Shown here: in pieces, positions 1 through 64,000 of the stretch
Layout: every line of letters begins with the position of its first letter
How positions within the stretch are numbered: position 1 is the first letter of the stretch
Assembly: GCA_020975725.1 (NCBI GenBank)
Contig: QXJR01000005.1
Coordinates: forward strand, 124,001-188,000
Direction: 5' to 3'
Length of the DNA: 64,000 nt
Source: Picocystis sp. L7
Lineage: Eukaryota > Chlorophyta > Picocystophyceae > Picocystales > Picocystaceae
Program-made: the position numbers and the translations under genes
The notes under the pieces: generated by a model
Told to the model about the DNA's origin: nothing
Database searches by the model: none
The model's input: only the letters and a program-made list of their open reading frames with translations

Positions 1-2
1 CT

Positions 3-1139
3 CTTTTGCAGCAGCTGCGCTTAACGTGCGATGACCGTTTAAACTGGGATGACTATTTACAGGCAGCTGCCCATGCTTATAATGACAGCGTACATGCTGT
101 TACAAAAGTTGCGCCGTTTGTCGCTTTGTTCGGATGCCCTTCAAGGTTGCCCTGGCACTTGCAGTTCCTAACCTTACAGGACAATACAGAGAGTCTCACA
201 GATATGATATCCACAGTAGACCAACGGGTTACTGTCCTACTAGACAAACAGCGACAATTGTACAGAACCATGCTAGAGCATTTGCATAAACAAGCTGAGA
301 AATTCCAGGCTCTGCGTTCACAATTACCGACTCGCTCTTTCAAGGTTGGTGATCAAGTGAAAGTCCAGTATGGCCTCAAGGGGCCAACTGATAAACACAA
401 ACTGGACCCATACTACGTCGGTCCATTCACCGTTACTGAAGACTTGGGAAAAGGGGCTTACAGGCTACAACTGCCCCCTGATTCGCCCTATTCTGACCGC
501 TTCAATGCTGACCGTTTGGCACCGTGGTTTGATTCAGATTTAACGCTCTTCCCTTCACAAGAACCTACTGGTGCATCCACCTCCCTTCCCGTGGATGCCA
601 ACGTGGAACCCGCCGCAATCATACAGCGCTATCTATTGAGAGACTATCAACTCTTCCCCCAACAGCCTGTTCGTTATTGGGTCAAGACAACTTCAACTAC
701 AGAACCCTACATGTGGGTCAATGAAACTAGTGAACTACTAGATGAGTTTTTGGTGCTGGAGGAAAACAATGGTTGCATTCCCGAACAGGGCATTACTGCC
801 TCTAACCTTGAGAAAGTGGAACAGCATAAACACCAAGTATATTTACAGTATCCAGCACCTATATTACTGAACACCTGGACTTCTTCAAAGCTACCATTCC
901 AGACCCGACGAAGACCGACTTACAAGTCACCCCATAACCTGCAACAGGCAGTGGTGCAACAGTTGTTTCATGCCTCCGATGGCACACAAGCATACTTTCA
1001 AGGCATGGTGATTGGCACATCGGGTGAAAACTATTGCGTGCGCTGGACTGATGGGATCGAGCAAAGTTATACAGCTGCTGAGATACGTGCGATGCTATAT
1101 GACCCCATCAGTTATGTGTATGACTTTCTTCACGTCTGA
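3..1139 (+). CDS. gypsy pol, integrase C-terminal part
   Basis: This frame enters from the left edge and stops before the LTR. It starts just after the integrase catalytic glutamate region, seen complete in the right-hand copy, and continues through the integrase C-terminal DNA-binding region. Around 345-530 is the usual gypsy block with VGDQVKV and YYVGPFTV. A long acidic and proline-containing linker follows. The last 50 residues (about 990-1101) contain YFQGMVIGTSGENYCVRW, a small beta-rich module like a chromo or tudor fold. Such C-terminal modules steer integration in chromoviruses; that role is inferred here. Confidence 0.88.
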   Translation, partial: LLQQLRLTCDDRLNWDDYLQAAAHAYNDSVHAVTKVAPFVALFGCPSRLPWHLQFLTLQDNTESLTDMISTVDQRVTVLLDKQRQLYRTMLEHLHKQAEKFQALRSQLPTRSFKVGDQVKVQYGLKGPTDKHKLDPYYVGPFTVTEDLGKGAYRLQLPPDSPYSDRFNADRLAPWFDSDLTLFPSQEPTGASTSLPVDANVEPAAIIQRYLLRDYQLFPQQPVRYWVKTTSTTEPYMWVNETSELLDEFLVLEENNGCIPEQGITASNLEKVEQHKHQVYLQYPAPILLNTWTSSKLPFQTRRRPTYKSPHNLQQAVVQQLFHASDGTQAYFQGMVIGTSGENYCVRWTDGIEQSYTAAEIRAMLYDPISYVYDFLHV

Positions 1140-1170
1140 TGTGTCAGTGACCTGACAGGAGCCAGGAGAA

Positions 1171-1752
1171 TGTAGCCTAGCAGGGACCCTACGAGACCCT
1201 GCGTGAAGACCCCGAGACTTTGGGGAGTAAAAGGGCAGTCATTGCCTTACTGCTCCCTACTACCGTTATACCATAGATCCGGGTCTGGATTGAATGTGGG
1301 TCAACAGAGCCCGGGAATAGATGCAGAACGCCCCGGGTCAATGGACATGTTTCAGTAAGGGATGAAGGGAACCCTTGACCGGTAGAGTTGAGTCGAAAGG
1401 ATTCCCTTTCCCCGTGTACTTCTAGAAGGTAGGGCTGGGGAGGCTGGACGGTGTCGATGACTCGGACAGCTGGCGGACGCCCCACGGCTGGCTGCACGGA
1501 CGGTCAGATTTGACCGTCAGCAGCACGTGGACCCTCCTTGTGCCCCACTTGCCCTCATCTCAACCGCCACTGAGTGGTTTTGAGAGACGGACCTCCAGTC
1601 CCTCTCTTTGCCTTGCAATTCACTTTTCTACTTGTCCTCCGAGACGACCTCCTCGCCTCATCAGCCTCTTCCAGGACCTCAACGACTGCTGAGAGCCGCA
1701 ACTCGCTCGTTGCACAAGTGTCCCCTGTCTGCGACCCTACTTGGACGCTACA
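1171..1752 (+). repeat. LTR of gypsy family A (left copy)
   Basis: The 582-bp LTR begins TGTAGCC just after the purine-rich tract AGGAGCCAGGAGAA and ends CTACA, giving the usual TG...CA ends. The same 582-bp sequence occurs at 51509-52090 and 58415-58996. On reading, the three copies look identical. Confidence 0.93.
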
Positions 1753-37112: not shown

Positions 37113-39226
37113 AGGGTCCAAGATCCACGACCCTTCCGTCCCTTGCGCGCAGCTCGTCCTTCCGATGGAGGTCCCGATGGAATTTCGTCGTTTCGGTAGG
37201 AATTGATCCCAAAACACGGCCACCCCCCTTTCGAAGCCAGCGGAAGAGGATGGAGGGGTCGGGAAACCCATCGGGGGTGTCTCGCATCGGCCACGGAGTC
37301 GCTTGGTGGATCCACGACCCTTCCGTCCCTTGCGCGCAGCTCGTCCTTCCGATGGAGGTCCCGATGGAATTTCGTCGTTTCGGTAGGAATCGATCCCAAA
37401 ACACGGCCACCCCCCTTTCGAAGCCAGCGGAAGAGGATGGAGGGGTCGGGAAACCCATCGGGGGTGCCTCGAATCGGCCACGGAGTCGCCTGGTGGATCC
37501 ACGACCCTTCCGTCCCTTGCGCGCAGCTCGTCCTTCCGATGGAGGTCCCGATGGAATTTCGTCGTTTCGATAGGAATCGATCCCAAAACACGGCCAACCC
37601 CCTTTCGAAGCCAGCGGAAGAGGATGGAGGGGTCGGGAAACCCATCGGGGGTGTCTCGCATCGGCCACGGAGTCGCCTGGTGGATCCACGACCCTTCCGT
37701 CCCTTGCGCGCAGCTCGTCCTTCCGATGGAGGTCCCGATGGAATTTCGTCGTTTCGATAGGAATCGATCCCAAAACACGGCCAACCCCCTTTCGAAGCCA
37801 GCGGAAGAGGATGGAGGGGTCGGGAAACCCATCGGGGGTGTCTCGCATCGGCCACGGAGTCGCCTGGTGGATCCACGACCCTTCCGTCCCTTGCGCGCAG
37901 CTCGTCCTTCCGATGGAGGTCCCGATGGAATTTCGTCGTTTCGGTAGGAATCGATCCCAAAACACGGCCACCCCCCTTTCGAAGCCAGCGGAAGAGGATG
38001 GAGGGGTCGGGAAACCCATCGGGGGTGTCTCGCATCGGCCACGGAGTCGCCTGGTGGATCCACGACCCTTCCGTCCCTTGCGCGCAGCTCGTCCTTCCGA
38101 TGGAGGTCCCGATGGAATTTCGTCGTTTCGGTAGGAATCGATCCCAAAACACGGCCACCCCCCTTTCGAAGCCAGCGGAAGAGGATGGAGGGGTCGGGAA
38201 ACCCATCGGGGGTGTCTCGCATCGGCCACGGAGTCGCCTGGTGGATCCACGACCCTTCCGTCCCTTGCGCGCAGCTCGTCCTTCCGATGGAGGTCCCGAT
38301 GGAATTTCGTCGTTTCGGTAGGAATCGATCCCAAAACACGGCCAACCCCCTTTCGAAGCCAGCGGAAGAGGATGGAGGGGTCGGGAAACCCATCGGGGGT
38401 GCCTCGAATCGGCCACGGAGTCGCCTGGTGGATCCACGACCCTTCCGTCCCTTGCGCGCAGCTCGTCCTTCCGATGGAGGTCCCGATGGAATTTCGTCGT
38501 TTCGGTAGGAATCGATCCCAAAACACGGCCAACCCCCTTTCGAAGCCAGCGGAAGAGGATGGAGGGGTCGGGAAACCCATCGGGGGTGCCTCGAATCGGC
38601 CACGGAGTCGCCTGGTGGATCCACGACCCTTCCGTCCCTTGCGCGCAGCTCGTCCTTCCGATGGAGGTCCCGATGGAATTTCGTCGTTTCGGTAGGAATC
38701 GATCCCAAAACACGGCCAACCCCCTTTCGAAGCCAGCGGAAGAGGATGGAGGGGTCGGGAAACCCATCGGGGGTGCCTCGAATCGGCCACGGAGTCGCCT
38801 GGTGGATCCACGACCCTTCCGTCCCTTGCGCGCAGCTCGTCCTTCCGATGGAGGTCCCGATGGAATTTCGTCGTTTCGATAGGAATCGATCCCAAAACAC
38901 GGCCAACCCCCTTTCGAAGCCAGCGGAAGAGGATGGAGGGGTCGGGAAACCCATCGGGGGTGCCTCGAATCGGCCACGGAGTCGCCTGGTGGATCCACGA
39001 CCCTTCCGTCCCTTGCGCGCAGCTCGTCCTTCCGATGGAGGTCCCGATGGAATTTCGTCGTTTCGGTAGGAATCGATCCCAAAACACGGCCAACCCCCTT
39101 TCGAAGCCAGCGGAAGAGGATGGAGGGGTCGGGAAACCCATCGGGGGTGCCTCGAATCGGCCACGGAGTCGCCTGGTGGATCCACGACCCTTCCGTCCCT
39201 TGCGCGCAGCTCGTCCTTCCGAAGGT
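37113..39226 (+). repeat. 187-bp satellite, about 11 tandem copies
   Basis: A 187-bp unit repeats head to tail. Each unit contains CCACGACCCTTCCGTCCCTT, GATGGAGGTCCCGATGGAAT, ATCCCAAAACACGGCCA and GGAAGAGGATGGAGGGGTCG. Copies differ at a few positions: GTCTCGCAT in the left half against GCCTCGAAT mostly in the right half, GGTAGG against GATAGG, and CCACCCC against CCAACCCC. The period is 3n+1 and the minus strand of the unit has no stop in any frame, so all three minus frames stay open across the array. These frames look like by-products. The length falls in the nucleosome-scale range common for heterochromatic satellites. Confidence 0.96.
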
Positions 39227-47409: not shown

Positions 47410-48100
47410 CTTGGCGGTGAAATCGAACCCAGCAGTGGCTCCTACTCCTCAGTCAAAGGCCACTTTGATTGCACAAACTTTGTGTTTCGTTCGTGATTGT
47501 GAGAGGTCAAAGAAACCCCGCAAGATGCCTTGCGTCCCTTCGGTTTAGGGCGGATGCGTAATGGAAGGGCAACCCGGGAAACACTGTTCTCCCGTACCCC
47601 CGATCCCCGTTGGATCGTTCGCCCCATCCCCGTACTCGGACGCCGTACGCCGGGGAAACACAGGAAACATCGTGTGAAGAACTCTAACCAGTTGATCCTC
47701 ATTTGAGTGAGGATTCCCTTGGGCTGGTTGGTCGGTATGTATTGAGAAAAGGGGTGTAGGATCCCTCTGTGGGAGTATATTCTCTACCGCAGACGAGGAC
47801 GTCGTCCCCGAAAACCAAGCCGTGTCCGTGCTCGCCTCATCATGCGCGTGACTTAACTTTGATGAAATACCACCCACTATATGTACTGAGTGGGTTAATG
47901 CATGTGTTACACTCTCTGGTATCCACGTCGAGCAACCCCTTGAGCCGCCACGCCATCGTCCCATCCATCGTCCAAAACCACCACGCTCGGTTCGGCCAGG
48001 GGATTTCAGACCCCCTTTTCAGGCAGGACAGACGAGTCTCACAATAGGTTAACAGCCTTGCAAGCTCGTATTTCAGCGAAGTAAAGCTTCGAGAACAAAA
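47410..48100. other. region upstream of the kinase-like gene and the copia element
   Basis: It should hold the kinase-like gene's promoter (minus) and the left end of the copia element, but no LTR edge, primer-binding site or TATA box is clear. Minus-strand open frames at 47442-47702 and 47545-47964 have no recognisable domain. Confidence 0.45.
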
Positions 48101-51100
48101 ATGGCGTCCAACCAAACCCTAGAATCCGTGGATCGGGATGGAATCCCCGAGCTAAGCAACACGAATTGGCCGGAATGGTCCTACAAGATGAAAAATAGTC
48201 TCATCTTGATGGACCTTTGGGACTATGTGGATCAAGAACCCCGACTTTCAACAACCAATGCCGAGCATTACACATCCGACGACCTTGAGAAGGTAAGAAT
48301 CGCCGCAAAGGCGCAAGCTCGTATCCTCATGAGAGTGCCGCATTGTTTCAAAGGGATCCTTGAAGGGTGCACAACGACGAAGAGCATATGGGAAAAGCTC
48401 CAATCCCTTTACAAGCAACAATCGCTCTCTCGGACTTCTCACCTCCTCAAGACACTCCACAACATACGGATGGAAGACAAGGAGCAATCGGATGACTTCA
48501 TCAAGCGAGTCACAAGTCTTGCAAGCGAGCTCCGAGACAATGGTTACGACATTGGTGAAATGGCCATATGCACGGCCATACTCAGCGGCTTGCCATGTCA
48601 ATACTCCATGATCAAACATGTGGTTGAAAATTACCATCAAGAACTCAGCATCAAGAATGTCCGCAATGCAATGTTGCGATTCGAGTCCATGGAGTTTAGT
48701 GGAAAGGCAATGATAGCCTCCTCCACCAAAGGGAAGCCTAGAAAATCAAGACTATTTCGCACATATTGCAAATTTCATGGACACGTCCGTTTCGAGTGTC
48801 GCAAACTGAAGAAAAAGAACAGCCAAGGTGGAAAACATCGAACACCTAGACAGAATGAGGTGTTGGAAGCTCAACATGGGCCCAAACGTGAAGAAAGTCC
48901 CATTGGATTCTCTCTCACGGCCATCTGCACCACGCATCCAAGCATGCCAAGACAAAATGGTCTCACAGCCCATTCCTCTACACCATCAGGCATATCACTC
49001 TCTTCAAGTGGCAGCTTCAGCATGGAGAAAACCTGGATCATTGATTCTAGTGCCTCATTTCATATGACAGGTGACCCCGGCTTGATTGACCCAGCAACTC
49101 GTCAAACAGCCCATGTGGCAATCACATGTGCCAACGGGCAGCACTTAACAAGTAAATTTAAGGAAAACAGTGTGATTAGATCAAAAACAGGCACACCTGT
49201 GCGCCTCACAAATGTTTACTACATCCCTGGTTTTGCACACAACCTGTTTTCAGTACCTGCTGCCACAAAGGCAAGGGCCCAGGTCCTATTCACCCATGGG
49301 ACCTGCAGGGTGGAATGTGCAAAAGGGGTCATCGAGACTACCCCGAGTGCTGACCACGTCTATGCCCCGGTGACTACCGCTCAGCGATGGCATAAACGCC
49401 TTGGGCACGCAAGTGCACCCCGGCTGAAGCTTCTTGGATCGCCCCACAAGCTAGACGGGCCTGTGAGTCCTGTATCCAAGCGAAGCAGAGTGCTCAATCA
49501 TTTCGCCTCAGTAACTATACCTATGAGCCCTTGGATCTTGTCTATACAAACCTTGTCGGACCCATACCAGAAACTCCTGATGGAGAGACTTACTATTTGT
49601 CCTTGTATGACGAGGCTTCCAAAGCAAGTCTCGTGTTTCTCTTACCCAACAAGTCCAGTGCATCGGGTGCGCTCATGGAAGGAATCAACACATTTGAGAA
49701 AATCGCAAAAGCAAGCTACAGAGTGAAAGCCATACGATCAGATCTGGGATCAGAATTTCAGCCAAATGCATTGTAGAAGTTCCTCAAAGATCGAGGTATC
49801 ACGCATGAAACAACAACAGGATACACGCCTCAGCAAAACGCAGCTGAACGATTGCACAGAACGCTTCATGACAACGCCCGTGCAGGACTCCCTGACACTC
49901 TCAAAGGGAGAGGCTGTGCGTTGTGCCAACTTTGTGCGCAGTCGCACCCCAGTTTCCCTCGCCTTGGATGGCAAAACACCACTCGAAGTATTGACGGGCA
50001 CCTTGCCCAACTTGAACCAATTCCGCACCTTTGGGTGCGATGCCTGGGTCCTCATACCTCTTGAGAAGCGAAGCAGCAAATTCAGCGCAAGGTCAGTGAA
50101 AGGCACATTCACCGGCTATCACAACAGTTCCACTTACCGCGTCCTAGTGGATGACAAGATTGCTCTCAGCAGAAACGTGAGCCTTGTGGAAGACAAATTC
50201 AGCACTAAGTCATTGAATCAAAGCCAAACACCCGACAGCACACAGGTCGTCCCATACCTGCTCCGAGAACCTCCACAGTTCAGCCAATCATGTGCAGCAA
50301 GTATGGATGGATCGTGAGGGTCAAATCACGCATCACGACCACTCAACGAGTTGCAAACAACCATCCACTAGGATGGTGTAGCAACAGACAACTCGTAGTT
50401 GCTGCCTAAAGACGGCAGCAACATGCCCACAACTGCTTGTCCAAACAATGCTCCAGGTGTGTCCTCCACACCTCCTGAGCATTGTGAAAGTGCTGAGGAA
50501 GCCACTCTTGTGGCTAAAGAAGCTCCCTCATCACTTCCGGAATCTGACCACTTAGAAACTGGCCATCCGCAAGCAGTGGAACCCAAGTCCATCCATCTTG
50601 CAACTCCAGCGCATCCATACAATCTGCGTCCAAGAAAAGGCAGCGCCATGAGAGCGAAAGCAACGCCTCAGTGGGAGCTTGACGACAGCTTTTCCGGTTA
50701 TGCTCGCCCAAACGCCGAGCTCTAGCAGCACACCATCACCGCCGAGCTCACCTCTTTGGCCAAGAACGGCACTTGGCGCCTGGTCACTCTTCCTCCTCGT
50801 CGCACCCCCTTGACCACCACGTGGGTGTTCAAGGTGAAGACCGACGGCAACGGTTAGGTGGAGCGCTACAAAGCCCGCCTGTGCGTGCATGGCTTCGAGG
50901 AGCGTGCAGGAGTGGATTTCCACGAGGTGTTTGCCTCTACCTCGGACAAAGTGGCTCAAAGGGCCTTTCTCACCTATGCAACCATGGTTAACTACAAGGT
51001 TTAGTAGGTGGACACCAAGATTGCTTTCCTCAACGCAGAACTAGACAAAGAAATTTACCTCGAGATCCCTCACGGAGTGAGGGACGACCGACAACTTAAC

Positions 51101-51508
51101 CACGAACCTAACCTGGTACTTAAACTGGAGAAGTCCCTCTATGGATTGAAGCAGGCCCCCAGAATGTGGTATCAACACCTCACAAACACAAAGAAGAAGG
51201 AACTAGGATTCCAATGCAACTCTGTGGATGACACCATCCTCAAGTGCAAGCATCAGAAAACTGGCAAGGAGTGCCTCATCCTAGTGTATGTGGATGACCT
51301 GCTCGTTGTTGCTCAAGATCTTAATACCATCCTAGCAATGATAGATACCATCTAGAGGCACTATGATGCCATGGACCTTGTGTGGTGCGGCCCACTATGT
51401 TAATTCAAGAATGCGGGTAAAATGGGCTTCACGCAAGCTTGGGCAATAGGCCTACTTGGATGTTGAAAAGTTTTAGCTCTTGGGAATGAATGGACCTGTT
51501 GAAGCTTG
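48101..51508 (+). mobile_element. Ty1/copia element, old and broken
   Basis: The parts run in copia order: a gag region starting at 48101 (with NWPEWSYKMKNSLILMDLWD, as in copia gag of the UBN2 type), a CCHC-like knuckle near 48760-48800, a protease block (WIIDSSASFHMTG, near 49030), a pre-integrase block (RWHKRLGHAS, near 49387), integrase pieces (49.5-50.3 kb), and reverse transcriptase with LYGLKQAPRMWYQHL and YVDDLLVV (51.1-51.3 kb). It is broken by roughly half a dozen or more changes and is further interrupted by the gypsy element at 51509. No matching LTR pair was found. It must be older than that gypsy element. Confidence 0.88.
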
Positions 51509-52090
51509 TGTAGCCTAGCAGGGACCCTACGAGACCCTGCGTGAAGACCCCGAGACTTTGGGGAGTAAAAGGGCAGTCATTGCCTTACTGCTCCCTACTA
51601 CCGTTATACCATAGATCCGGGTCTGGATTGAATGTGGGTCAACAGAGCCCGGGAATAGATGCAGAACGCCCCGGGTCAATGGACATGTTTCAGTAAGGGA
51701 TGAAGGGAACCCTTGACCGGTAGAGTTGAGTCGAAAGGATTCCCTTTCCCCGTGTACTTCTAGAAGGTAGGGCTGGGGAGGCTGGACGGTGTCGATGACT
51801 CGGACAGCTGGCGGACGCCCCACGGCTGGCTGCACGGACGGTCAGATTTGACCGTCAGCAGCACGTGGACCCTCCTTGTGCCCCACTTGCCCTCATCTCA
51901 ACCGCCACTGAGTGGTTTTGAGAGACGGACCTCCAGTCCCTCTCTTTGCCTTGCAATTCACTTTTCTACTTGTCCTCCGAGACGACCTCCTCGCCTCATC
52001 AGCCTCTTCCAGGACCTCAACGACTGCTGAGAGCCGCAACTCGCTCGTTGCACAAGTGTCCCCTGTCTGCGACCCTACTTGGACGCTACA
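51509..52090 (+). repeat. 5' LTR of gypsy family A
   Basis: 582 bp, TGTAGCC...GCTACA, the same as 1171-1752 and 58415-58996. No standard tRNA primer-binding site (one starting TGG) is recognised directly after it. Confidence 0.95.
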
Positions 52091-52111
52091 TTGTCGAAGC
52101 CTCGCTTGGCG

Positions 52112-53386
52112 ATGAGCGACTCGGAGGAAGAATTCCTCTCCGGAACCGCCACACGAATGCAACGGTTGAGAGGTGAATTGGAACGTGAGCAACAAGCTCG
52201 ATCCGTCCTTGCTCAGCAAGTGGAGGAGTTGGAAAGTCAACTACGTCGTTTGCGTAACGACACCCCCGCTCAAGACCCGCAAGTGCAAGAAGAAGAACCG
52301 CTTGGGGAAGAGGATCTCCCTCGCGAGGACAATGGACCTACTCCACCATCAGTTGAACCCAATGAGAAGGCAGCTGGGAATGCTTCCCACCTGGCTATGC
52401 AACCATTGAGCCAACAAGGACTTCATTCACTCACCAAGATGTACCAAGCTATGGAAGGCTCCCACCGGTTGCAAGGAGTGGCATTGTCCAAGCCAAAAAG
52501 CTTCTCTGGAACGGAAGTGATAGATGACCCATATGCACTCACCCACTGGTATAGGGAGGTTGCTTGTTGGGTCGAAGGTTACGCGAGCGATCCAACTCAG
52601 CAGGTAGTACTAGCTCTCCAGACCTTGACAGGCACAGCCCGCATCATGGTCGATAATATTATCATGGCTGATCGGGAGCGCGTTCCAAACTTACCGTCTC
52701 TCTTCAGTCTACTCAAGGAGACCTTTCAAAGAAGAGACCCAGGGCCTGATGCTTGGAAAGAATTTCAGCGGGCTCGTTTACGTCAAAACAAGGAGAATGT
52801 GATCACTTACTTGAACCGCCTCCTTCTTCTGAGTTTTGTGATTAATATGAGCGATGACCCCACCTGTCCAAGGGTTGATGAGGATGACATCGCCACCAGG
52901 TTACGCATCGGCCTGCCATATGACAGTGGCAATAAGGTGGAGCAACACATGCAACTGATGGTTGATTTGGAACGCAAGCCAGATGTGTCCCCATGGGGCA
53001 TAGCAGCCATCGCATTGAAAGTGGAAGCCCAGGACAGAGAGAAAGCTCGGCGTGTTTCACGCACGGTCAGGCCGCTCAATCAAAATGGTCATGGAGCCAA
53101 ATCTGTGGCCACTGTCCATGCCTTACCTCAGAAGGAAGGGAGCTACCGCCCCAACGTACGATCGATCGAAGGACGGGCCGCCAAGCGATTCAGAGATTTA
53201 TCGGAGGAACTTCAAAAAAGGATAGTGGCTGCGCAGACACAGATGAAAAGTCTGCCTTTGGGAGCCAGTCTTTCTCAAGACCAACTTCAACTCTGTCAGA
53301 GTAATTCCTTGTGCATCAAGTGTAGACGCTACGGGCATGACGCAAAACATTGCCGTCACACCCAGCCAATGATGCCAAAAAACTGA
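52112..53386 (+). CDS. gypsy family A gag (capsid/nucleocapsid)
   Basis: The gag frame encodes the structural protein that packages the element RNA. I take the start at the methionine at 52112 (MSDSEEEF), because the earlier in-frame methionine lies inside the LTR. An early coiled-coil-like stretch (about residues 10-45, rich in Glu, Gln and Leu) is followed by an acidic linker, a retrotransposon gag domain (LTHWYREVACWVEGYA and following, about 145-300), and one zinc knuckle near the end, CIKCRRYGHDAKHC (CX2CX4HX4C). The frame ends right after a -1 slippery heptamer and overlaps pol by 37 bp. Confidence 0.9.
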   Translation: MSDSEEEFLSGTATRMQRLRGELEREQQARSVLAQQVEELESQLRRLRNDTPAQDPQVQEEEPLGEEDLPREDNGPTPPSVEPNEKAAGNASHLAMQPLSQQGLHSLTKMYQAMEGSHRLQGVALSKPKSFSGTEVIDDPYALTHWYREVACWVEGYASDPTQQVVLALQTLTGTARIMVDNIIMADRERVPNLPSLFSLLKETFQRRDPGPDAWKEFQRARLRQNKENVITYLNRLLLLSFVINMSDDPTCPRVDEDDIATRLRIGLPYDSGNKVEQHMQLMVDLERKPDVSPWGIAAIALKVEAQDREKARRVSRTVRPLNQNGHGAKSVATVHALPQKEGSYRPNVRSIEGRAAKRFRDLSEELQKRIVAAQTQMKSLPLGASLSQDQLQLCQSNSLCIKCRRYGHDAKHCRHTQPMMPKN

Positions 53387-56300
53387 ACAGGCTCCTCCCG
53401 ACGGAAGAGGCCGTCGGGATGGAGCCAAGAGAGGTGCCACCCGCAAGCGCGAGGTCTGATCCGTTGACTCTCAACAACTTATACCCAGATCAGGTGGTAA
53501 CCTTACGAGCGTCGCCAAACCCTCGCCCCCGTTGTGAGTTCCTCACAGCCAGCAGTACTATTGGACCTACAGGTCCTACTGACCTGTCCACACAGGCGTA
53601 CGTGGACACGCTTGCCAGCAACTCCTTCTTAAGCATTCATTACTTTGAAAAACTGAAGAAGCATGACCCAACACAGCAGAATTGGAGGCCTACTGGCCAA
53701 TACTTTGATTTCAGCCTAGCAGTAGGGACAGAAGTGCACCAGGCCCAAGTTATTCAAGCACAGATTACAATCGATACCTTTCAGGTGAGTCATTATTTTG
53801 GTGTGGCCCCCATTGAGACCTTTGAATGCATACTAGGTGTCGACTTCTGCCACCTCTTCTTGCTGCACATAAACTGGCAGCATCAGTACATGGAACTTAA
53901 ACATCCTGATGGGACAGTTCATAAAGTACAGGGCGACACAGCATTTTTAAAAGCCCGTAAACTTGACCTTATAGTGCCCCCCTCTGAAATCAAAGAGGCC
54001 ATGCAAACAGAAGGATGTTTATTACTAATGGTGCAACCTCTTGATGTCACCTGTGAGCTAACATCTGAAGAACTAGAAACTTCGACCTTCCGCAGTAAGC
54101 TCAGTGATGCCTGCACGCTGTCACCCAACGAACAAGAGAGACTGCAGAAGCTGCTCAGCAAGTACGCGCTCTGCTTTGAAAAGCGTACCACCTTACCTTG
54201 CGAACGCGTACCCGGTGAGTCATTCAAGATTCAGCTGGAACCTAGTACTCAGCCGGTGCATCGCAACTATTATCGGTTGTCCCCACAACAGCAGGATGCT
54301 CTACGCGAACTGCTGACCGAATACGTGGACGCTGAGAAAATGGATGTCTGTGCGGGATCGAGTTGGGGGGCACCTGTCCTCCTCATCCCAAAGAAGGATG
54401 GGGGGTGGAGGGTCGTGTTCGACTATCGAATGCTAAATGCAGCCACAATTAAGGACCGCTACCCGTTGCCGCGAATAGATGACCACCTGCAGAACTTGAG
54501 AGGGTCAAGTATCTTCTCATCAGTAGACGCCCTAGACGGCTTTCACCAGCTTCCCATGAATGGAGAAGATGTTGACAAGACAGCAATTGTTACTCCTTTC
54601 GGCAGCTATGTATGGAGGGTTATGCCAATGGGTCTGGCCAATGCCCCTGCAATGTTCCAGAGAATGATGAATCGAATTTTTGGGGCATTGCCCTTTTTAA
54701 AGGTCTATATGGATGACATATTGATACACTCTGTAGATCAAGAGAAACACTTTGAACATTTGGAAGACTTCCTCGAGGTATGCCAGCGTAACGACATACG
54801 ACTGAAAGAGTCAAAATGTCACTTCTTCCACCGAACGCTGGAATGGGTAGGTTTTCGCATACATGCTGGCCAGCTCAGTTGTGCAGACCATTTGGTGGAG
54901 CGCATACAAAAGTTCCCTAAACCTGTCACACACAAACAAAACTTAGCATTCCTGGGACTTTGTCAATTCTACATGCGTTTTGTACGCAATTATGCAGAGA
55001 TTGCTTCACCTCTTACAGAGCTCACTCGCAAACAGTACCGCCACGACTTCTGTCGTTTCTGGAAGGCTCAACATGACCAGGCCTTTGAACACCTTGTGCG
55101 TATGCTCACTACTGGACCTATTTTACAGTTATTTGATGAAGACCGGCCTATACGCGTTGAGACTGACGCTTCGGATTTGGGTATGGGGGCTGTACTACTA
55201 CAAGAAACCTCCCCCAACACCTGGGAACCAGTTGAGTATTACTCTAAAAAGTTCAATTCAGCACAAAGAAACTATCATCCAGCAGAGAAGGAGACTTGTG
55301 CTATCGTCTACGCTCTGCAGCATTGGCGGCACCTTCTCTTTGGACAGAGATTCACTGTCCTTACAGACAACAAAGCCAGCATGTACTTGCAAAGCAAGTC
55401 CGCAGAACAACTCAGTCCCCGGGATCAGCGCTGGACGGCGAAGTTGGCATACTTTGCACCTTTCGCTGTCGAGTACCGCCCAGGATCTCAAAATATTACT
55501 GCAGATTACTTATCGCGCAACCCCCCTAGCACAGGTCCTCCCATCATCCGGATTTTAGACTTATGTGCAGGTATGGGCACAGTCCTTCGAGCTCTGTGGC
55601 ATCTCATACCAACTGGCTATCCAATACAAGTTGATTACATAGCAGTCGAAATAGAAGAGCATGCCCGAAAGGTAATACAGAGGGTGTTTGCTGAGGTGAA
55701 CCTCGATCGACCTGGACTCTTTCACCGCACAGATATTTTCCGTTATGGCAATGATGTACGAGTATTGGCGCATCGAAGAAAGCTACCACCTGTCCACCTG
55801 CTTATCGCGGGGGTACCATGCCAGCCGTTCTCCAAAGCCAATACCTCGCCAGACTACCCCAGTTATGGGCTGCGGGATGAAAGAGAACTTTTTACAACGG
55901 TACATACCCTTTACAACCGACTTGGTCGACCAGATTATATCATCGAATGTACTCCTTTTGCAGGCCACCTTTACAAAGATTTTCAGCAGGTTGCGGAAAT
56001 GTTTGGAGAGCCCGCCTTACACGACATGTCCCAGTACTGCCCCCAGAAAAGGAGCAGGTACTGCTGGACTTCGCTTCCGTCCAATTCACGTATATGGCAT
56101 GTACCCGGTCTGCCCCTTACCTGGTAAGATTGTTTGACCGATGGAGCTACGGTTCCTACTGGCGCAATGAACCAGCCCGTTCTTAAATGCCCCACTTTGA
56201 TGGCCACGAGTAACTCGCATAGTGACCGCAATCGGACAACATGGGTACGTAACTCAGATGGAACTGAAAGAGCGCTGACAGTTGCAGAAAAAGAGCGCTT

Positions 56301-58383
56301 GGTTGGGATGGAAATTGGAGACACAGCTGCCGAGAATGTCTCAACAAGCAGGCGACATCGGTTGTGCGGCAATGCATTCCCCGTAGCGTGGATAGCCAAC
56401 CTTCTGGACCTTTACTTTAAAACACCCACAGGGACGCTTCGACCGCTAGCTAGCCGCAGTCTCACCGAGGCTGTGTGTGTTCAAGGCAAACAGTCCAGAA
56501 TCCTGTCCGCGTTGGCCGATCCGGGCAGTCCCTCTTTTGTGCAGCGCCTACGGTCCGCCGCTCTATCTGACCCTCAGTATGAGGCATGGCTGCAAAAGCC
56601 GCCCCCACATTTGCGTGCCACCAATGGACTGCTTTTTGAAGTCAGCCCTCCAAATCAGATCGATGTCTTCGACGGCCCTGCTGTGGTACTGGTTCCCGCA
56701 GATGACGCCTTACGTCAGGACTTATTACACCTAGTACATGACCAGGCGCACTTCGGTGCAGAGCGTACCTTCGCAAACGCCAAGCGCCACTTCACTTGGA
56801 AAGGAATGAAACAGCATATAAATCACTTTGTCGCGCGCTGTCCAACTTGTCAGATGCAAAAACCAGGAACAACATCTAGGCACCAGCCCCTCTTTGCCGA
56901 GACTAAGTTTTATCCCTATCCATTTCACACAGTGGTAATGGATGTGGTCGAAGGATTGCCCCTTACAGCCAAGGGGCATAATGGGGTGCTTACTGTTGTC
57001 GATCGTTTTACGAAGTATGCGATCTACATTGCTATACACACTTCCTGGAGTTCTTTCCGACAAGCGCAATGCTTGCTAGATGCGCTCGTGTACCGCTTCC
57101 ATACGCCGCAGCGCATTCACACTGACAATGGGCCAGCGTATCGCGACCTTTTCCAAGCATTCTGCGCTGCAATGGGAGTTCAGCATTCCACTGGAACACC
57201 GTATCATTCACAATCCCAAGGAGGTGCAGAGCGACAGCATCGCACTCTTTTGCAGCAGCTGCGCTTAACGTGCGATGACCGTTTAAACTGGGATGACTAT
57301 TTACAGGCAGCTGCCCATGCTTATAATGACAGCGTACATGCTGTTACAAAAGTTGCGCCGTTTGTCGCTTTGTTCGGATGCCCTTCAAGGTTGCCCTGGC
57401 ACTTGCAGTTCCTAACCTTACAGGACAATACAGAGAGTCTCACAGATATGATATCCACAGTAGACCAACGGGTTACTGTCCTACTAGACAAACAGCGACA
57501 ATTGTACAGAACCATGCTGGAGCATTTGCATAAACAAGCTGAGAAATTCCAGGCTCTGCGTTCACAATTACCGACTCGCTCTTTCAAGGTTGGTGATCAA
57601 GTGAAAGTCCAGTATGGCCTGAAGGGGCCAACTGATAAACACAAACTGGACCCATACTACGTCGGTCCATTCACCGTTACTGAAGACTTGGGAAAAGGGG
57701 CTTACAGGCTACAACTGCCCCCTGATTCGCCCTATTCTGACCGCTTCAATGCTGACCGTTTGGCACCGTGGTTTGATTCAGATTTAACGCTCTTCCCTTC
57801 ACAAGAACCTACTGGTGCATCCACCTCCCTTCCCGTGGATGCCAACGTGGAACCCGCCGCAATCATACAGCGCTATCTATTGAGAGACTATCAACTCTTC
57901 CCCCAACAGCCTGTTCGTTATTGGGTCAAGACAACTTCAACTACAGAACCCTACATGTGGGTCAATGAAACTAGTGAACTACTAGATGAGTTTTTGGTGC
58001 TGGAGGAAAACAATGGCTGCATTCCCGAACAGGGCATTACTGCCTCTAACCTTGAGAAAGTGGAACAGCATAAACACCAAGTATATTTACAGTATCCAGC
58101 ACCTATATTACTGAACACCTGGACTTCTTCAAAGCTACCATTCCAGACCCGACGAAGACCGACTTACAAGTCACCCCATAACCTGCAACAGGCAGTGGTG
58201 CAACAGTTGTTTCATGCCTCCGATGGCACACAAGCATACTTTCAAGGCATGGTGATTGGCACATCGGGTGAAAACTATTGCGTGCGCTGGACTGATGGGA
58301 TCGAGCAAAGTTATACAGCTGCTGAGATACGTGCGATGCTATATGACCCCATCAGTTATGTGTATGACTTTCTTCACGTCTGA
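53350..58383 (+). CDS. gypsy family A pol region: protease, RT, RNase H, methyltransferase, integrase
   Basis: Domains in order: an aspartic protease (AYVDTLASNSFLSI near 53600; ECILGVDF near 53830); reverse transcriptase (GGWRVVFDYRMLNAATIKDR near 54400; YMDD near 54707); RNase H (VETDASDLGMGAVLL near 55155; LTDNKA near 55360); C5-cytosine methyltransferase (55546-56420); and integrase with an HHCC finger ending CPTCQMQK (56740-56864), the DDE core (VMDVVEG near 56935, HTDNGPAY near 57118, GGAERQHR near 57224) and a C-terminal chromo/tudor-like module (about 58240-58345). It is expressed by -1 frameshifting from gag. The region is near-whole, with about one break at most. Confidence 0.9.
53377..53383 (+). 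promoter_or_regulatory. -1 programmed frameshift heptamer between gag and pol
   Basis: The sequence AAAAAAC sits in the gag frame as A-AAA-AAC, the classical X-XXY-YYZ form, and the gag stop TGA follows it directly. The pol frame is the -1 frame and is open across this point. Gypsy elements and retroviruses are known to use such sites to make a Gag-Pol fusion. I did not work out a downstream pseudoknot. Confidence 0.85.
55546..56420 (+). other. C5-cytosine DNA methyltransferase domain within gypsy family A pol
   Basis: The ordered C5-methyltransferase motifs are visible. They are motif I for the methyl donor (ILDLCAGMGTVLRAL), motif IV with the catalytic Pro-Cys (LLIAGVPCQPFS), motif VI (IIECTPFAG), motif VIII (QKRSRYCWTSLP), and motif X (CGNAFPVAWIANLL). 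The block TLMATSNSHSDRNRTTWV resembles the RTITTRSNSI region of DNMT3-type enzymes, so a DNMT3-like origin is possible. It lies between RNase H and integrase. Family knowledge: cytosine methyltransferases captured by retrotransposons have been reported in some algae and dinoflagellates. The function here is inferred and could be methylation of the element's own DNA or of its target. Confidence 0.88.
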
Positions 58384-58400
58384 TGTGTCAGTGACCTGAC

Positions 58401-58414
58401 AGGAGCCAGGAGAA
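58401..58414 (+). other. polypurine tract of gypsy family A
   Basis: AGGAGCCAGGAGAA lies immediately before the 3' LTR. It is the usual place for plus-strand priming. Confidence 0.65.
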
Positions 58415-58996
58415 TGTAGCCTAGCAGGGACCCTACGAGACCCTGCGTGAAGACCCCGAGACTTTGGGGAGTAAAAGGGCAGTCATTGCCTTACTGCTCC
58501 CTACTACCGTTATACCATAGATCCGGGTCTGGATTGAATGTGGGTCAACAGAGCCCGGGAATAGATGCAGAACGCCCCGGGTCAATGGACATGTTTCAGT
58601 AAGGGATGAAGGGAACCCTTGACCGGTAGAGTTGAGTCGAAAGGATTCCCTTTCCCCGTGTACTTCTAGAAGGTAGGGCTGGGGAGGCTGGACGGTGTCG
58701 ATGACTCGGACAGCTGGCGGACGCCCCACGGCTGGCTGCACGGACGGTCAGATTTGACCGTCAGCAGCACGTGGACCCTCCTTGTGCCCCACTTGCCCTC
58801 ATCTCAACCGCCACTGAGTGGTTTTGAGAGACGGACCTCCAGTCCCTCTCTTTGCCTTGCAATTCACTTTTCTACTTGTCCTCCGAGACGACCTCCTCGC
58901 CTCATCAGCCTCTTCCAGGACCTCAACGACTGCTGAGAGCCGCAACTCGCTCGTTGCACAAGTGTCCCCTGTCTGCGACCCTACTTGGACGCTACA
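58415..58996 (+). repeat. 3' LTR of gypsy family A
   Basis: 582 bp, reads the same as the 5' LTR. It is followed by CTTG, the right half of the target duplication. Confidence 0.95.
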
Positions 58997-59000
58997 CTTG

Positions 59001-60081: not shown

Positions 60082-63000
60082 GTCCCCCCTCCTTAGATAC
60101 CAAGCGTCCTCATTTGAAAGATTTTCAGGGGACCCTAGAGTAAATGGACAAGTTCTTCACGTGATATGTAATCTACGTCTCGTGGTTCATATCTGATCTT
60201 GTACCCTTCCTTCGTAAAATCCATCACTTTACCCTTGTACCATCATTCCTGATCCGTCTCATCTACAAACCGTTTGTAGACAATTCGGTATAATAGATTC
60301 TCTCGAGGATCCAATACTTGTAGTTGGCTCGGCTTTACAGATCGGTGACAGTCTGTTAATGTGAATGTCTTCATTGAATGTTCCGTAATCCAAGTGTGGT
60401 GGAGCGGTGGAAAATACTGATGATAGGACTTGTATTTGTGATGTGATACTTGTTCATGATGTTCATGTCGTTGTTGTGAAGTTGCACCTCGAGTAATGTT
60501 GAGTTATGGTATTGGTCCATGCTAATATTCCTAGTCTAAAATAGCTTGAACACCACCTTGTGCTTTTTGTTCACCTAGAAACAATTCGCGATTTGTTCCT
60601 TTCAGACCTTTCCAGCGCGCCAGTATCGTGGTGGGATTGTATTCGAGTCGCGCAGGACGTACTGGTCAACAACATGATTCTGTGTATCAGGGGACAAAAG
60701 TGCATCATCATGATCTGCGGATGCTTCTTGAGTACCTGAAAATGGTTCAATATGTTCTACATTGATCCATGGACTGATGCGCGAACCTGCTGGCAAATCT
60801 AGTTTTATAGCCCCTGTTGGTTGTATCGCCAGAATTTTGAATGGTCCACATGATTGTGTTGCATATTTTGCAAGCCGGCCGAGTCTTCGTAACTTTACCA
60901 GCTGCCTAATAGAAAACTGCAACAATTTTTCACTTCGAGACTGATTGGCATATTTTTTAGTCTTGAATACTGTGCATCCATGTTTTCAAATACTTCATGA
61001 TATCTATTTGCTAAGTCCTCCTCATCGTGTTCACCACGCGTACTCACAGTTTGCAACGCGGTGACAAGTGTTGGTAAGCGTGGTGATCTGCTCAAATGTA
61101 AATAAAATGGCGAGTACTTGGTTGAGGATGTAACGGCATTGTTGTGCGCAAACTGAATCATCGGCAGTAAACTGTCCCAATCAGTTGGATGTGTCATCAT
61201 CGTACGTAAGGCTGCTTTTAAAGTCTGATTCTGACGTTCCGTTTGTCCGTCGGACTGTGGATGGTATGGTGTACTGCGATGCAGTTTTGTACCCAGCATC
61301 GATCCAAAGTCGTTCCAAATTTCTCCAACAAAGCGTGAATCATGGTCTGTGAATATCTTTTCTGGAGCACCATAATGACAAACAACATGCCTTAGAAATA
61401 GTTGAACCAGCATGGAGGCAGTTGCTGCTTTCACTGTGGGTATGTAAATTGTCATCTTGGTGAACTTGTCCACTATCACAAACACTGAATCATATCCTGT
61501 AGTTGTAAGAGGCAGGCCTGTAGTCAAGTCACAATATACATATGTGAACGGTCCAGTGGGTGAGGGCATTCGCTGGAGTAAATGCGATTTACGTTTGTGC
61601 GATGGTTTCGCAAGCTGGCACGCTCTGCGGTTTTCCACATACTGTACAATATCCCTTGACATACCTGGCCACATGTATGGTCTCTTCATCAGTTCCACCA
61701 TCCTTTTCTGTCCAGGGTGTCTTGCAGTGGGTAAGTCATGATGTATATGCATGAGGTACTTCCTAAGGTCAGCATCATTTGGTACTGGGATGCGACCTTC
61801 AACGGATTGCAAACCTGAAGAGTCATCCTCAGCTGCGGCTTGAAGTAGGCGTTGATGCAATTCGTCTAACACAACATAACTGTCGATTGTATGTACTAGC
61901 TGGACACTTTTACATACATCGTCGGCCCGAGTACTCGGTTGGGTTGTATTTGTGTGAAACTGAATTGTGGTAGGCCCACGCTGAAATACCCACTTTGGTA
62001 TAAAGTGTTTAAGAAGGAGCTGCAAGAACGGTACGGGCACTGCGTTGCCGAGAAAACGCTGCTTCTGTTGTTCGTTACCCATCACCAGACTGGCGGATGG
62101 TATGCCAACCAATTTGGCTTTCTCGTCCAGTGTCATCGGACGTAACTTCATGGCCTGGTGGATATCATGCACCCACATAGATTTGTTTCTGTCACTATAA
62201 GTGTTTGCAGATGCCATCAATGTTGCGGACTTTCGAACGAGGCAGACCGTTCGTGTCCAGTTGTGGTACTGCATTCGATAAACAATCGATCCACAAGGGC
62301 GCTGATTCGGCACAAGTTCTGTTAATCTATTCACTGTCAAGCTTGATGTTGGCCCATAGCCTGCGTATGCGTTTCTGCGCGGTATATCGCTCCAGGTGAT
62401 GTACCTGAGGTTTACAGCGTAACATTGTATTGATGACCTGTAAATCTTCCTTTAAGTGATCTGCGAACGGTACGCACTCAATAGCAAAGGGCTGTGGTTG
62501 CAATAACTAAATTAAAGCTACGGGCTGCGTAAAACACTGACGCTCATCCTTTAATCCTTTTGCAGAGTTCTTTGCTGCTTGTGAGAAAGGTCGACATGGT
62601 ACCCCTGCAAATAGGAAATGTATGCATGGTAGTTCCTGCGGTTGCAATTCAGTAATTGTTGGTCCAAAGTAGTTGACATTGTCTACTGATCCCAAGAATG
62701 TATGGGGCCGCAATTTCTGTATATGAGCGAAAGGAGACTTGAGCGAGTTTGCCGCTGCTACGTCCTTTTCCACAGCGTAATACAAAACTTGTACGTAGTC
62801 GGGTGATTCTGCAGCAAGGGCATGTAGCAAAGTTCCTGTACCACCTGCACATAACTCTAGTACATTGAGTGTGGGGTATGTGCTCCATCTGGAAATGGCA
62901 TCGGCGACAACGTTCTTTGGTCCAGGTTCATACTGTGGAGTGTAATCAAATTGCGACAGTATGTCAATCCAACCTTGTTCCACTCTAGTAAGTTGTTCAG

Positions 63001-64000
63001 CCTTCTTTGTTTACAAATATTGAATCCCGATATGATCGGTGAACAATTCGAAGTGCTGACCCTGCAAGTAGAATTTCCATTTTCGCAAGCAGGAAATCAC
63101 AGCAAGTGTTTCTTTGCCAGTAGTTGAATACCGCTGTTGGGCTGGATGCATTACTTGGGAATGAAAAGCCACAGGATGCCATTTTCCCCATGCAACTGTG
63201 ACAAGCACCCTCCAATAGAATGATTGCTGGCATCAGTATGTACTCTGATGGGCTTTTCTGGATCAAAGACACGTATGATGGGTGGTTCTCCATTTAGAAA
63301 GATATCTTTGAGCCTTACAAAGGCTTGCTGCTGCTCACTCTCCCAACACCATTGTTCTTCTTTCTTTATGAGTTTGATAATAGGTGCAGCAATGCGAGCA
63401 AACTGCGGAATGAGTTGCCGATAAAATCCTACAAGCCCTAGAAACGATCGGGCCTGACTGATAGATTGTGGTGCCTGTGCAATGCGTATCGCCTCCAGTA
63501 AGTGTTGAGCAGGTGTAAGTGTACCCTTTTGAATAGTATATCCCAAAAAATCCACTTCTGTTTGACAGTAATATGCTTTACTGCTTTTCAACCGTACATG
63601 CTGTTGGTGACATAATTCAAAGAAACGCCGGGTGCTGCGTACATGCGATGCATAGTCAGCAATATGTACTAAGTAGTCATCCAAGTATATTTCAAAGTAG
63701 ACCACTCATGCACCAACTCTGCAAATGCATGGTTGACAAACCTTTGAAAAGTGGCCGGTGCATCGAACAGTCCCATCGGCATCACTACCCACTCACAGTG
63801 TCCAAAAGGTGTTGTTACCGCTGTCTTAGCAATATCTTCTTCTCGAATTCTCATATGGCAGTACCCATCCTGTAAGTCAAATGTTGAATAGATTATACTA
63901 CCATACAATGTGTCAAATAATTCGTGACTGCGAGGGATGGTGTGACGATCCTTGACAGTGATCGCATTGAGTGCCCGAAAGTCAAATACGATGCGCCACT
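60082..64000 (-). mobile_element. Ty3/gypsy element family B, partial, broken, carrying a DNA methyltransferase domain
   Basis: The minus-strand element runs out of the window on the right. From right to left it has reverse transcriptase (about 64000-63550; TTPFGHCEWVVMPMGLFDAP and IYLDDYLVHI), RNase H (about 63260-62880; VHTDASNHSIGG), C5-cytosine methyltransferase (62863-62001), integrase (about 61800-60750; ENRRACQLAKPSHK, YCDLTTGLPLTTTGYDSVFV, IFTDHDSRFVG, HPQSDGQTERQNQTL), a C-terminal chromo/tudor-like module (60240-60135), a purine-rich tract (60082-60095) and an LTR. It carries several breaks, so it is older than family A. Its proteins differ clearly from family A although the domain order is the same. 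Confidence 0.88.
62001..62863 (-). other. C5-cytosine DNA methyltransferase domain within gypsy family B
   Basis: Motifs visible in this broken copy are motif I (VLELCAGGTGTLLHAL), motif IV (FLFAGVPCRPFSQ), the DNMT3-like block TLMASANTYSDRNKSMWV, and motif X (RFLGNAVPVPFLQLLLKHF). It sits between RNase H and integrase, the same place as in family A. The two domains are clearly homologous but well diverged. This fits one capture in a shared ancestor. Confidence 0.82.

Follow-up and report, generated by a model that had tools for sequence, protein, structure and literature searches.

Why would a retrotransposon keep an enzyme of the kind that is used to silence it? DNA methyl marks are often used by cells to silence jumping genes, and elements that carry a silencing-type enzyme appear self-defeating; why the enzyme is kept is the question raised by a locus in Picocystis sp. 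L7. It lies within a stretch of 64,000 nucleotides (contig QXJR01000005.1, positions 124,001 to 188,000), here called the window, whose own numbering is used below.

The element belongs to a family that we call A, and is a Ty3/Gypsy long terminal repeat (LTR) retrotransposon spanning positions 51509-58996 on the + strand. Its 5' LTR (51509..52090) and 3' LTR (58415..58996) are on the + strand, 582 bp long, bounded by TG...CA and equal at 582/582 bases, and the target-site repeat CTTG flanks them (left 51505..51508, right 58997-59000, unstranded). Judged by these identical LTRs, which had already been read as such, the window element is a young copy. The internal features are all on the + strand. 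The gag frame (52031..53386, 451 aa from stop to stop) has a CX2CX4HX4C zinc knuckle close to its end, and a Pfam search at E 0.01 gave no match to it. The pol frame falls into two pieces. Piece 1 (53341..56127) encodes the reverse transcriptase (RT; 54385..54861, PF00078, E 2.8e-35, with YMDD at 54700-54732), RNase H (55060..55455, PF17919/PF17917) and the initial 202 residues of a methyltransferase (MTase), and closes with TAA. Piece 2 (56128..58383) holds the remainder of the MTase and the integrase, with an H2C2 zinc-binding domain (56701..56865, PF17921), the rve core (56920..57210, PF00665) and a Tf2-1-like SH3 domain (57625..57765, PF24626).

Assignment to Ty3/Gypsy follows from the Pfam order, with RT-RNase H upstream of the rve integrase, from an RT nearest to Ty3, and from direct TG...CA LTRs with short target repeats. 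The RT of copy L012, which is 99% identical to that of the window, has Ty3 RT as its best PDB match (E 1.4e-87); the RT trees comprised 14 loci, 7 or 6 database proteins, and Ty3. Many element copies in the genome have an LTR identity of >=99%, and a target repeat of 4-5 bp was detected automatically at 11 of the 20 loci with a repeat pair, and not at the other 9. Over 12,955 columns, paired LTRs differ by 39 transitions, of which 10 lie in CpG context, and by 19 transversions; this count takes in the overlong L027 and L028 repeats and is too small for use. A search for self-priming, that is, complements of >=8 bases to the 20 bases past the 5' LTR, found none inside the LTR, and Rfam returned nothing for the window at the gathering threshold.

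Two further Ty3 elements lie at the ends of the window. Positions 1..1752 (+ strand) contain the 3' portion of a further copy of family A, from integrase to LTR (1171-1752), with its left LTR outside the window at C3:118274; just the last 192 residues of its MTase region, L046, align in one frame (76%). A broken family-B element (about 60602..63998, - strand) has its RT, MTase (62510-63010, 60898-62451) and integrase in separate frames and runs past the window.

The MTase domain of the window element (55519..56457, + strand; delimited by tblastn using the L012 domain as query, and assigned to family and fold through its relatives) sits inside Pol, with RNase H on one side and integrase on the other. 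As the original prediction held, five motifs occur in order, all on the + strand: motif I (RILDLCAGMGT, 55549-55581), motif IV (LLIAGVPCQPFS, 55798-55833), motif VI (IIECTPF, 55939-55959), motif VIII (PQKRSRYCW, 56041-56067) and motif X (RHRLCGNAFPVAW, 56353-56391), the numbers being those that we take these stretches to correspond to. What the prediction overlooked is an in-frame TAA at 56125..56127 (+ strand), residue 203 of 313. The domain is present in the young element, but the stop interrupts it, so the window copy is incapable of producing a whole enzyme by normal translation. The C5-methyltransferase profile PF00145 matches piece 1 weakly (E 4.2e-4, 20.3 bits, under the 22-bit cut-off) and does not match piece 2; on the same domain in the uninterrupted copy L012 the match is significant, at E 5.5e-9. 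Intact copies may have mobilized the window copy in trans, or its stop may have arisen after insertion; the identical LTRs are compatible with either origin.

The domain is by no means confined to this copy. There are at least 150 scored MTase matches in the 20.5-Mb genome, spread across several families. Among the 150 RT matches listed, 119 are followed 1146-1306 bp downstream by an MTase match, 25 by another spacer without catalytic motif and 5 by MTase pieces, and 1 lies at a contig end; the MTase domain is thus present in most scored Ty3 elements of the genome. By our reading, 15 of the 150 MTase N-halves among the matches listed carry stops. A chance occurrence or an insertion in one copy only, raised beforehand as a possible refutation, is ruled out by the number of genomic matches together with the PF00145 match in 23/23 aligned members.

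Those 23 members were picked for open frames and diversity, to the exclusion of near-identical copies and of both L006 and the window copy, a choice that favours conserved residues. They diverge down to 33% identity, and the catalytic residues remain invariant: Pro-Cys-Gln, the motif VI Glu and Gln-x-Arg-x-Arg are kept in every one. Among family-A copies, 18 non-synonymous and 13 synonymous changes were counted in the MTase (0.44); in the dS range 0.005-0.05 its median ratio is 0.37, versus 0.17 for RT and integrase, so that either recent constraint is weak or the changes are too few. A low dN against saturated dS was also observed. In this comparison, the integrase row of L025 comes from a neighbouring family-A copy.

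Profile, fold and tree together show that, at the level of sequence, the domain is a DNMT3-type C5-cytosine MTase. DNMT3A and DNMT3B are its best profile and fold matches, with the same motif order and about 26% identity over 261 residues; one ranking comprises the best 50 matches, and MTase families missing there are not counted as excluded. The MTase part of P0019 had no match in a PDB search at E 0.1. DNMT3A/DNMT3B possess PCN and Arg836, whereas the element domain has PCQ, no Arg at that place, and a location within Pol. Arg836 of DNMT3A makes a CpG contact. At the aligned position, the 23 members have Ser (19), Asn (2), Thr (1) or Ala (1) and never Arg; CpG specificity, therefore, cannot be assumed.

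A phylogeny had been suggested as a check, and in it the domain falls among the C5 MTases, in the DNMT3-type group. Support for grouping with DNMT3, with phage-type enzymes apart, was 90/70 in one tree (14 of the 23 aligned members and 4 of 20 database proteins, the DNMT1 row P0076 being absent) and 50/18 in another, which leaves out P0019, L065, L067 and L069; union of the element domain with the phage-type enzymes is not rejected (p-AU 0.42). The phage-type proteins P0041, P0043 and L064 (IMG/VR) share with it, by eye, ExTP at motif VI and a SAQxRxRLxWTNI-like stretch, and the best PDB matches of P0041 are also DNMT3B/C. They differ in having neither RT nor integrase, and in showing 29-33% identity to the element domain over partial length. 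We infer a phage origin for this type because L064 belongs to a viral collection. The plant DRM enzymes are likewise DNMT3-type relatives, but their rearrangement is absent from the element domain: in the host DRM-like L070, motif X precedes motif I, an order shared by its best-matching DRM rows, whereas the element keeps the order I-IV-VI-VIII-X. A DRM-like or bacterial Dcm origin was considered and is contradicted by motif order and ranking.

The host has enzymes of its own, with DNMT1 and CMT-, DRM- and DNMT2-like genes alongside; the CMT-like gene shows a chromodomain by eye. The 947 residues of host DNMT1 used as query are 100% identical to a DNMT1 in a EukProt set labelled Pavlova lutheri, which is a haptophyte, and its next-best named relatives among the 7998 candidates scored are plants. 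A host light-harvesting (LHC) protein matches chlorophyll a-b binding proteins, and together with the DNMT1, CMT-like and DRM-like genes it places the host in the green lineage. Dinucleotide counts were also considered as a possible trace of self-methylation. In the RT region, MTase families have a CpG observed/expected ratio of 0.61-0.83, and D, a single family, reaches 0.97; values as low as those of the MTase families occur in host DNMT1 (0.68), a host LHC gene (0.68) and a copia piece (0.66), and host DNMT2 has 0.90. At codon junctions D has 0.73 and the rest 0.40-0.80, and TpG/CpA of host genes is 1.18-1.28. Against host genes and codon junctions, CpG depletion gives no clear signal.

What, then, might the enzyme do? 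We infer that these families descend from a shared ancestor that already had the MTase domain, and we lean, with modest confidence, towards the reading that this Pol-borne DNMT3-type enzyme marks the element's own cDNA or new insert. Methylation of its own cDNA by the element is plausible. As a component of Pol, the MTase would accompany RT and integrase. Either ahead of integration or immediately following it, the enzyme would methylate cytosines in newly synthesized double-stranded cDNA or in the inserted copy. The resulting insertion would thereby bear a mark used by the host itself and enter chromatin pre-methylated, which may hide it from systems reacting to unmethylated foreign DNA, or leave it in a quiet, tolerated state.

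One might instead expect the enzyme to act on the target, methylating flanking host DNA together with the integrase complex or, through DNA binding, steering integration to methylated, gene-poor chromatin. The MTase lies directly before the integrase in Pol, and contigs C3 and C4, together 11.6% of the assembly, hold 68/159 MTase matches; however, 22/33 matches to the catalytic-motif-free D spacers are likewise on these contigs, so the clustering is equally well accounted for by counter-selection of insertions in other regions, and we regard an action on the target as fairly unlikely. The D family, whose spacer occupies the same position and lies in frames reaching 2672 aa, bears on other readings too. 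It has spread without PCQ, so transposition does not in all cases require the activity, and its spacer resembles the N-half of the MTase minus the PCQ loop, as might be expected if the domain were a structural Pol part that mainly binds protein or nucleic acid, much as DNMT3L assists DNMT3A in mammals, with methylation secondary. That likeness is suggestive, and binding alone would not require the catalytic residues that are invariant in the 23/23 members of other families; we find this account doubtful. A bolder proposal, which we consider improbable, is that a non-CpG DNMT3-type enzyme, fixed in the ancestor of nearly all Ty3 elements here, drives methylation of much of the repeat chromatin, the D spacer being a catalytically dead, maintained, DNMT3L-like part of Pol.

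A functionless passenger, acquired once and now decaying slowly, would account for the interrupted window copy, the stops in N-halves and the absence of the catalytic motif from D, yet catalytic residues invariant down to 33% identity and low dN against saturated dS make it very improbable. We give equally little credence to a host benefit, in which the element's enzyme methylates invading viral DNA and hosts tolerate the element, as proposed in the available text of PMC6338049 with an argument from algal large DNA viruses. MTase-bearing families and a catalytic-motif-free sister family, side by side in one genome, offer a natural comparison.

Retrotransposon-borne enzymes of this kind have precedents. 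The cases in the available text of PMC5890265 are DIRS and LINE elements of Symbiodinium and a Gypsy of Klebsormidium, the one Gypsy example; no further Gypsy-borne DNMT is described in the portions available of PMC12344493, PMC6338049, PMC9998398 and PMC10538959. Database hits of the element domain included none named Klebsormidium, and most lacked an organism name. According to the same part of PMC5890265, SymbioDIRS-Dnmt3 and SymbioLINE-Dnmt likewise carry a DNMT, in hundreds of copies, and SymbioDIRS-Dnmt3 is of DNMT3 type like the element domain; they are tyrosine-recombinase (DIRS) or LINE elements, whereas ours is a Ty3 element with an rve integrase. KnitGypsy-Dnmt3 of Klebsormidium nitens (de Mendoza et al. 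2018, PMC5890265), compared here by its description in the available text, is likewise a Gypsy with a DNMT3-related domain in the Pol frame, with key residues conserved and the domain under purifying selection. Its repeats are in a DIRS-like arrangement (Fig. 4 legend), whereas the element here has plain direct LTRs and 4-bp target repeats, and at least 150 domain matches in 20.5 Mb. The Picocystis element is a new, abundant DNMT3-bearing Gypsy in another green-lineage genome.

The window carries, at 51509-58996 on the forward strand, a Ty3/Gypsy LTR retrotransposon, identified by its LTRs, frames and Pfam domains. Its LTRs had been read as identical, and this is borne out (582 bp each, TG...CA ends); the target repeat is CTTG, and the gag frame contains a zinc knuckle. 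The Pfam order of pol is RT, RNase H, MTase, integrase H2C2, rve and a Tf2-1-like SH3, which confirms the original prediction of a C5-cytosine methyltransferase (MTase) between RNase H and integrase. The MTase lies where it had been placed (55546-56420), though its extent is slightly wider (55519-56457), and motifs I, IV, VI, VIII and X all stand in the classical order, as expected. The closest solved structure to the RT of L012, an uninterrupted copy with an RT 99% identical to that of the window, is Ty3 RT (E 1.4e-87). A TAA at 56125-56127, at residue 203 of the 313 of the MTase, breaks the window pol frame between motifs VIII and X; therefore, normal translation of this copy would yield neither a whole MTase nor an RT-joined integrase. 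Copies without such a break exist among the matches scored, with 67 of 150 MTase matches in open frames of at least 1500 aa.

The MTase N-half is found at 150 or more genomic places (150 scored of 178 candidates); identity is 98–100% at 9 of the scored places and 48–79% at the others. Family B adds 9 MTase places (76–100% identity to L005), one of them inside the window, where a second Ty3 element, broken across several frames, occupies 60602-63998 on the reverse strand. In a PF00078 survey of the best-scoring 150 of 273 RT candidates, 119 of the 150 matches are followed by an MTase match 1146–1306 bp onward in the reading direction and 25 by a D-type spacer instead; the other 6 comprise five loci with MTase pieces by tblastn (L046, L059, L060, L061 and L063) and one match at a contig end. 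No RT partner was seen for 40 of 159 MTase matches among these best 150 of 273, as is expected of a survey confined to the best-scoring matches. The window LTR has 40 genomic matches. Read by eye, the 22 at 96% identity or more comprise 2 singles and 10 pairs with a spacing of about 6.9 kb. Contigs C3 and C4 make up 11.6% of the assembly and may be transposon-rich chromosomes; 68 of 159 MTase matches lie on them, as do 22 of the 33 D-spacer matches.

Other repeats share the window. A broken copia-type element (48053-51355) adjoins the gypsy element; copia gag, Pol_BBD and RVT_2 were recognized in the two pieces scanned, and no MTase match was found in these. A 34-kb satellite of approximately 21-bp units (GACGTTGAGTGTCCTCTGGGG), in which GpC dinucleotides are nearly absent, spans 2940-37104 and is followed by a 187-bp array in 11 copies (37122-39222).

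In the D family of Ty3 relatives, a spacer of 200 aa occupies the MTase position (33 matches, some places being split in two), in frames reaching 2672 aa (e.g., L050, C3:1012300-1015000). From the RNase H end, the spacer aligns colinearly with the N-half of the MTase (FRVLHVGPPAED / IRILDLCAGMGT; NRKRLPQAHVVLLA / HRRKLPPVHLLIAG; LLSRLPASTHVIHSATYNG / LYNRLGRPDYIIECTPFAG), and the PCQ loop and C-half are missing. Tests of its likeness to the MTase gave mixed results, and RT trees are compatible both with MTase loss in D and with D never having had one; as a lead, the spacer may be a dead vestige of the N-half of the MTase.

Among databases, 20 long proteins match the MTase, 18 at 46–94% identity and P0019 and P0020 at 30%, and precomputed Pfam lists give RT, MTase and H2C2 domains in all 20. 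The latter two belong to a far-diverged Ty3 lineage that keeps the RT-RNase H-MTase-integrase order, P0020 representing 139 member sequences. IMG/VR returned distant enzymes only (6 loci, 28–31% identity). A EukProt set labelled Pavlova lutheri supplies P0010, P0022, P0024, P0025, P0027, P0028, P0032, P0034, P0039, P0040 and P0063; P0024, P0032 and P0040 match loci of this genome at 100% identity, as P0063, a DNMT1, does its counterpart here. Since the genome looks green by its gene content, the label conflicts with the content of that set, and these identities seem to reflect a mix-up of label or sample.

Where did the MTase come from? In a first tree, 18 element MTases formed one group (support 99/96) and, with DNMT3A and three phage-type enzymes, stood apart from DNMT1, CMT, DNMT2 and bacterial enzymes (100/97). 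In a second, to which a piece of the host DRM was added and from which P0019, L065, L067 and L069 were taken out, support was 100/99 for a group of 17 element rows, 95/95 for DNMT3A with DRM and 93/95 for the DNMT3-type superset; as to whether DNMT3/DRM or the phage type is the nearer relative, it was 50/18 (p-AU 0.42). Both trees have long branches, and DNMT3 is represented by a single 222-residue row. Searched with a DNMT3A fragment, the genome gave 131 matches, the best being element MTases (coordinates read by eye), and one non-element gene stood out at C20:156487 (E 0.007, 41% over 46 residues). This gene (L070, C20:155700-157000) is DRM-like, with motif X preceding motif I; among PDB rows it matches best 4onj (E 4e-28; entry title DNA methyltransferase), a DRM structure, followed by DRM2 (E 9e-23); for DNMT3A the E-value is 4e-9. 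The element MTase, in contrast, is not rearranged, so L070, as it is arranged today, is unlikely to have been the direct donor. PMC12344493 reports DRM from streptophytes only, which makes the green-lineage position of this host of interest. Further host genes (L003, L001, L002 and L004) encode a CMT-like protein with a chromodomain recognized by eye, a DNMT1, a DNMT2-like protein, also by eye, and a PF00145-PWWP protein.

Age was sampled in 20 long element loci plus the window copy. A repeat pair was detected in 20 of the 21; 17 pairs have at least 99% identity and the others 98.8, 98.7 and 94.8%, with the detected repeat longer than an LTR in L027 and L028, which adjoin on C11. Synonymous sites are mostly saturated among the between-family pairs listed, for which dN is 0.20–0.39 in MTase, 0.09–0.23 in RT and 0.19–0.35 in integrase, so that the MTase evolves at about the pace of integrase. 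MTase dS could be computed and fell between 1 and 5 in 21 of 210 pairs, for which the ratio is 0.065–0.111 (median 0.10); at dS 0.05–0.3 the MTase median is 0.17 (6 pairs). Over the long term, constraint is strong. At dS 0.005–0.05, medians are 0.37 for MTase (39 pairs), 0.17 for RT (27) and 0.17 for integrase (41). Within family A, to which the window element belongs, there are 18 non-synonymous and 13 synonymous MTase changes (0.44), 20 and 30 in integrase (0.20), and approximately 69 and 40 in RT (0.49, a value that the rearranged L018 inflates). In recent time the MTase looks less constrained than integrase, on a small number of changes.

We infer that the element MTase is catalytically active. 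Arg836 of DNMT3A is the CpG-contacting residue; at this position, located in structure alignments by the R836A entry 6brr versus 6w89, element MTases have Ser, Asn, Thr or Ala, and a methylation context other than CpG is therefore possible. As part of Pol, the MTase should accompany RT and integrase, and its nearest substrate would then be cDNA. The authors of PMC5890265 propose this substrate for DIRS elements, and report de novo CG methylation in yeast by SymbioDIRS-Dnmt3 domains and no signal, which they call inconclusive, from the Klebsormidium Gypsy domain. In the RT region, CpG is 0.97 in D versus 0.61–0.83 in the MTase families, and TpG/CpA 1.01 versus 1.21–1.37; values of host genes and the copia piece overlap those of the MTase families, and codon-junction counts erase most of the contrast. 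Dinucleotide counts do not decide on self-methylation.

In the open literature, covered mostly by title listings, we found no report tied to this host. A DNMT3 in Gypsy Pol is a known kind, described from Klebsormidium in 2018 (PMC5890265). New here are another green-lineage genome with a DNMT3-type Gypsy Pol, in elements with plain LTRs; the presence of the MTase in a very large proportion of the scored Ty3 matches, across several families; and a sister family, D, without the catalytic motif beside MTase-bearing families.
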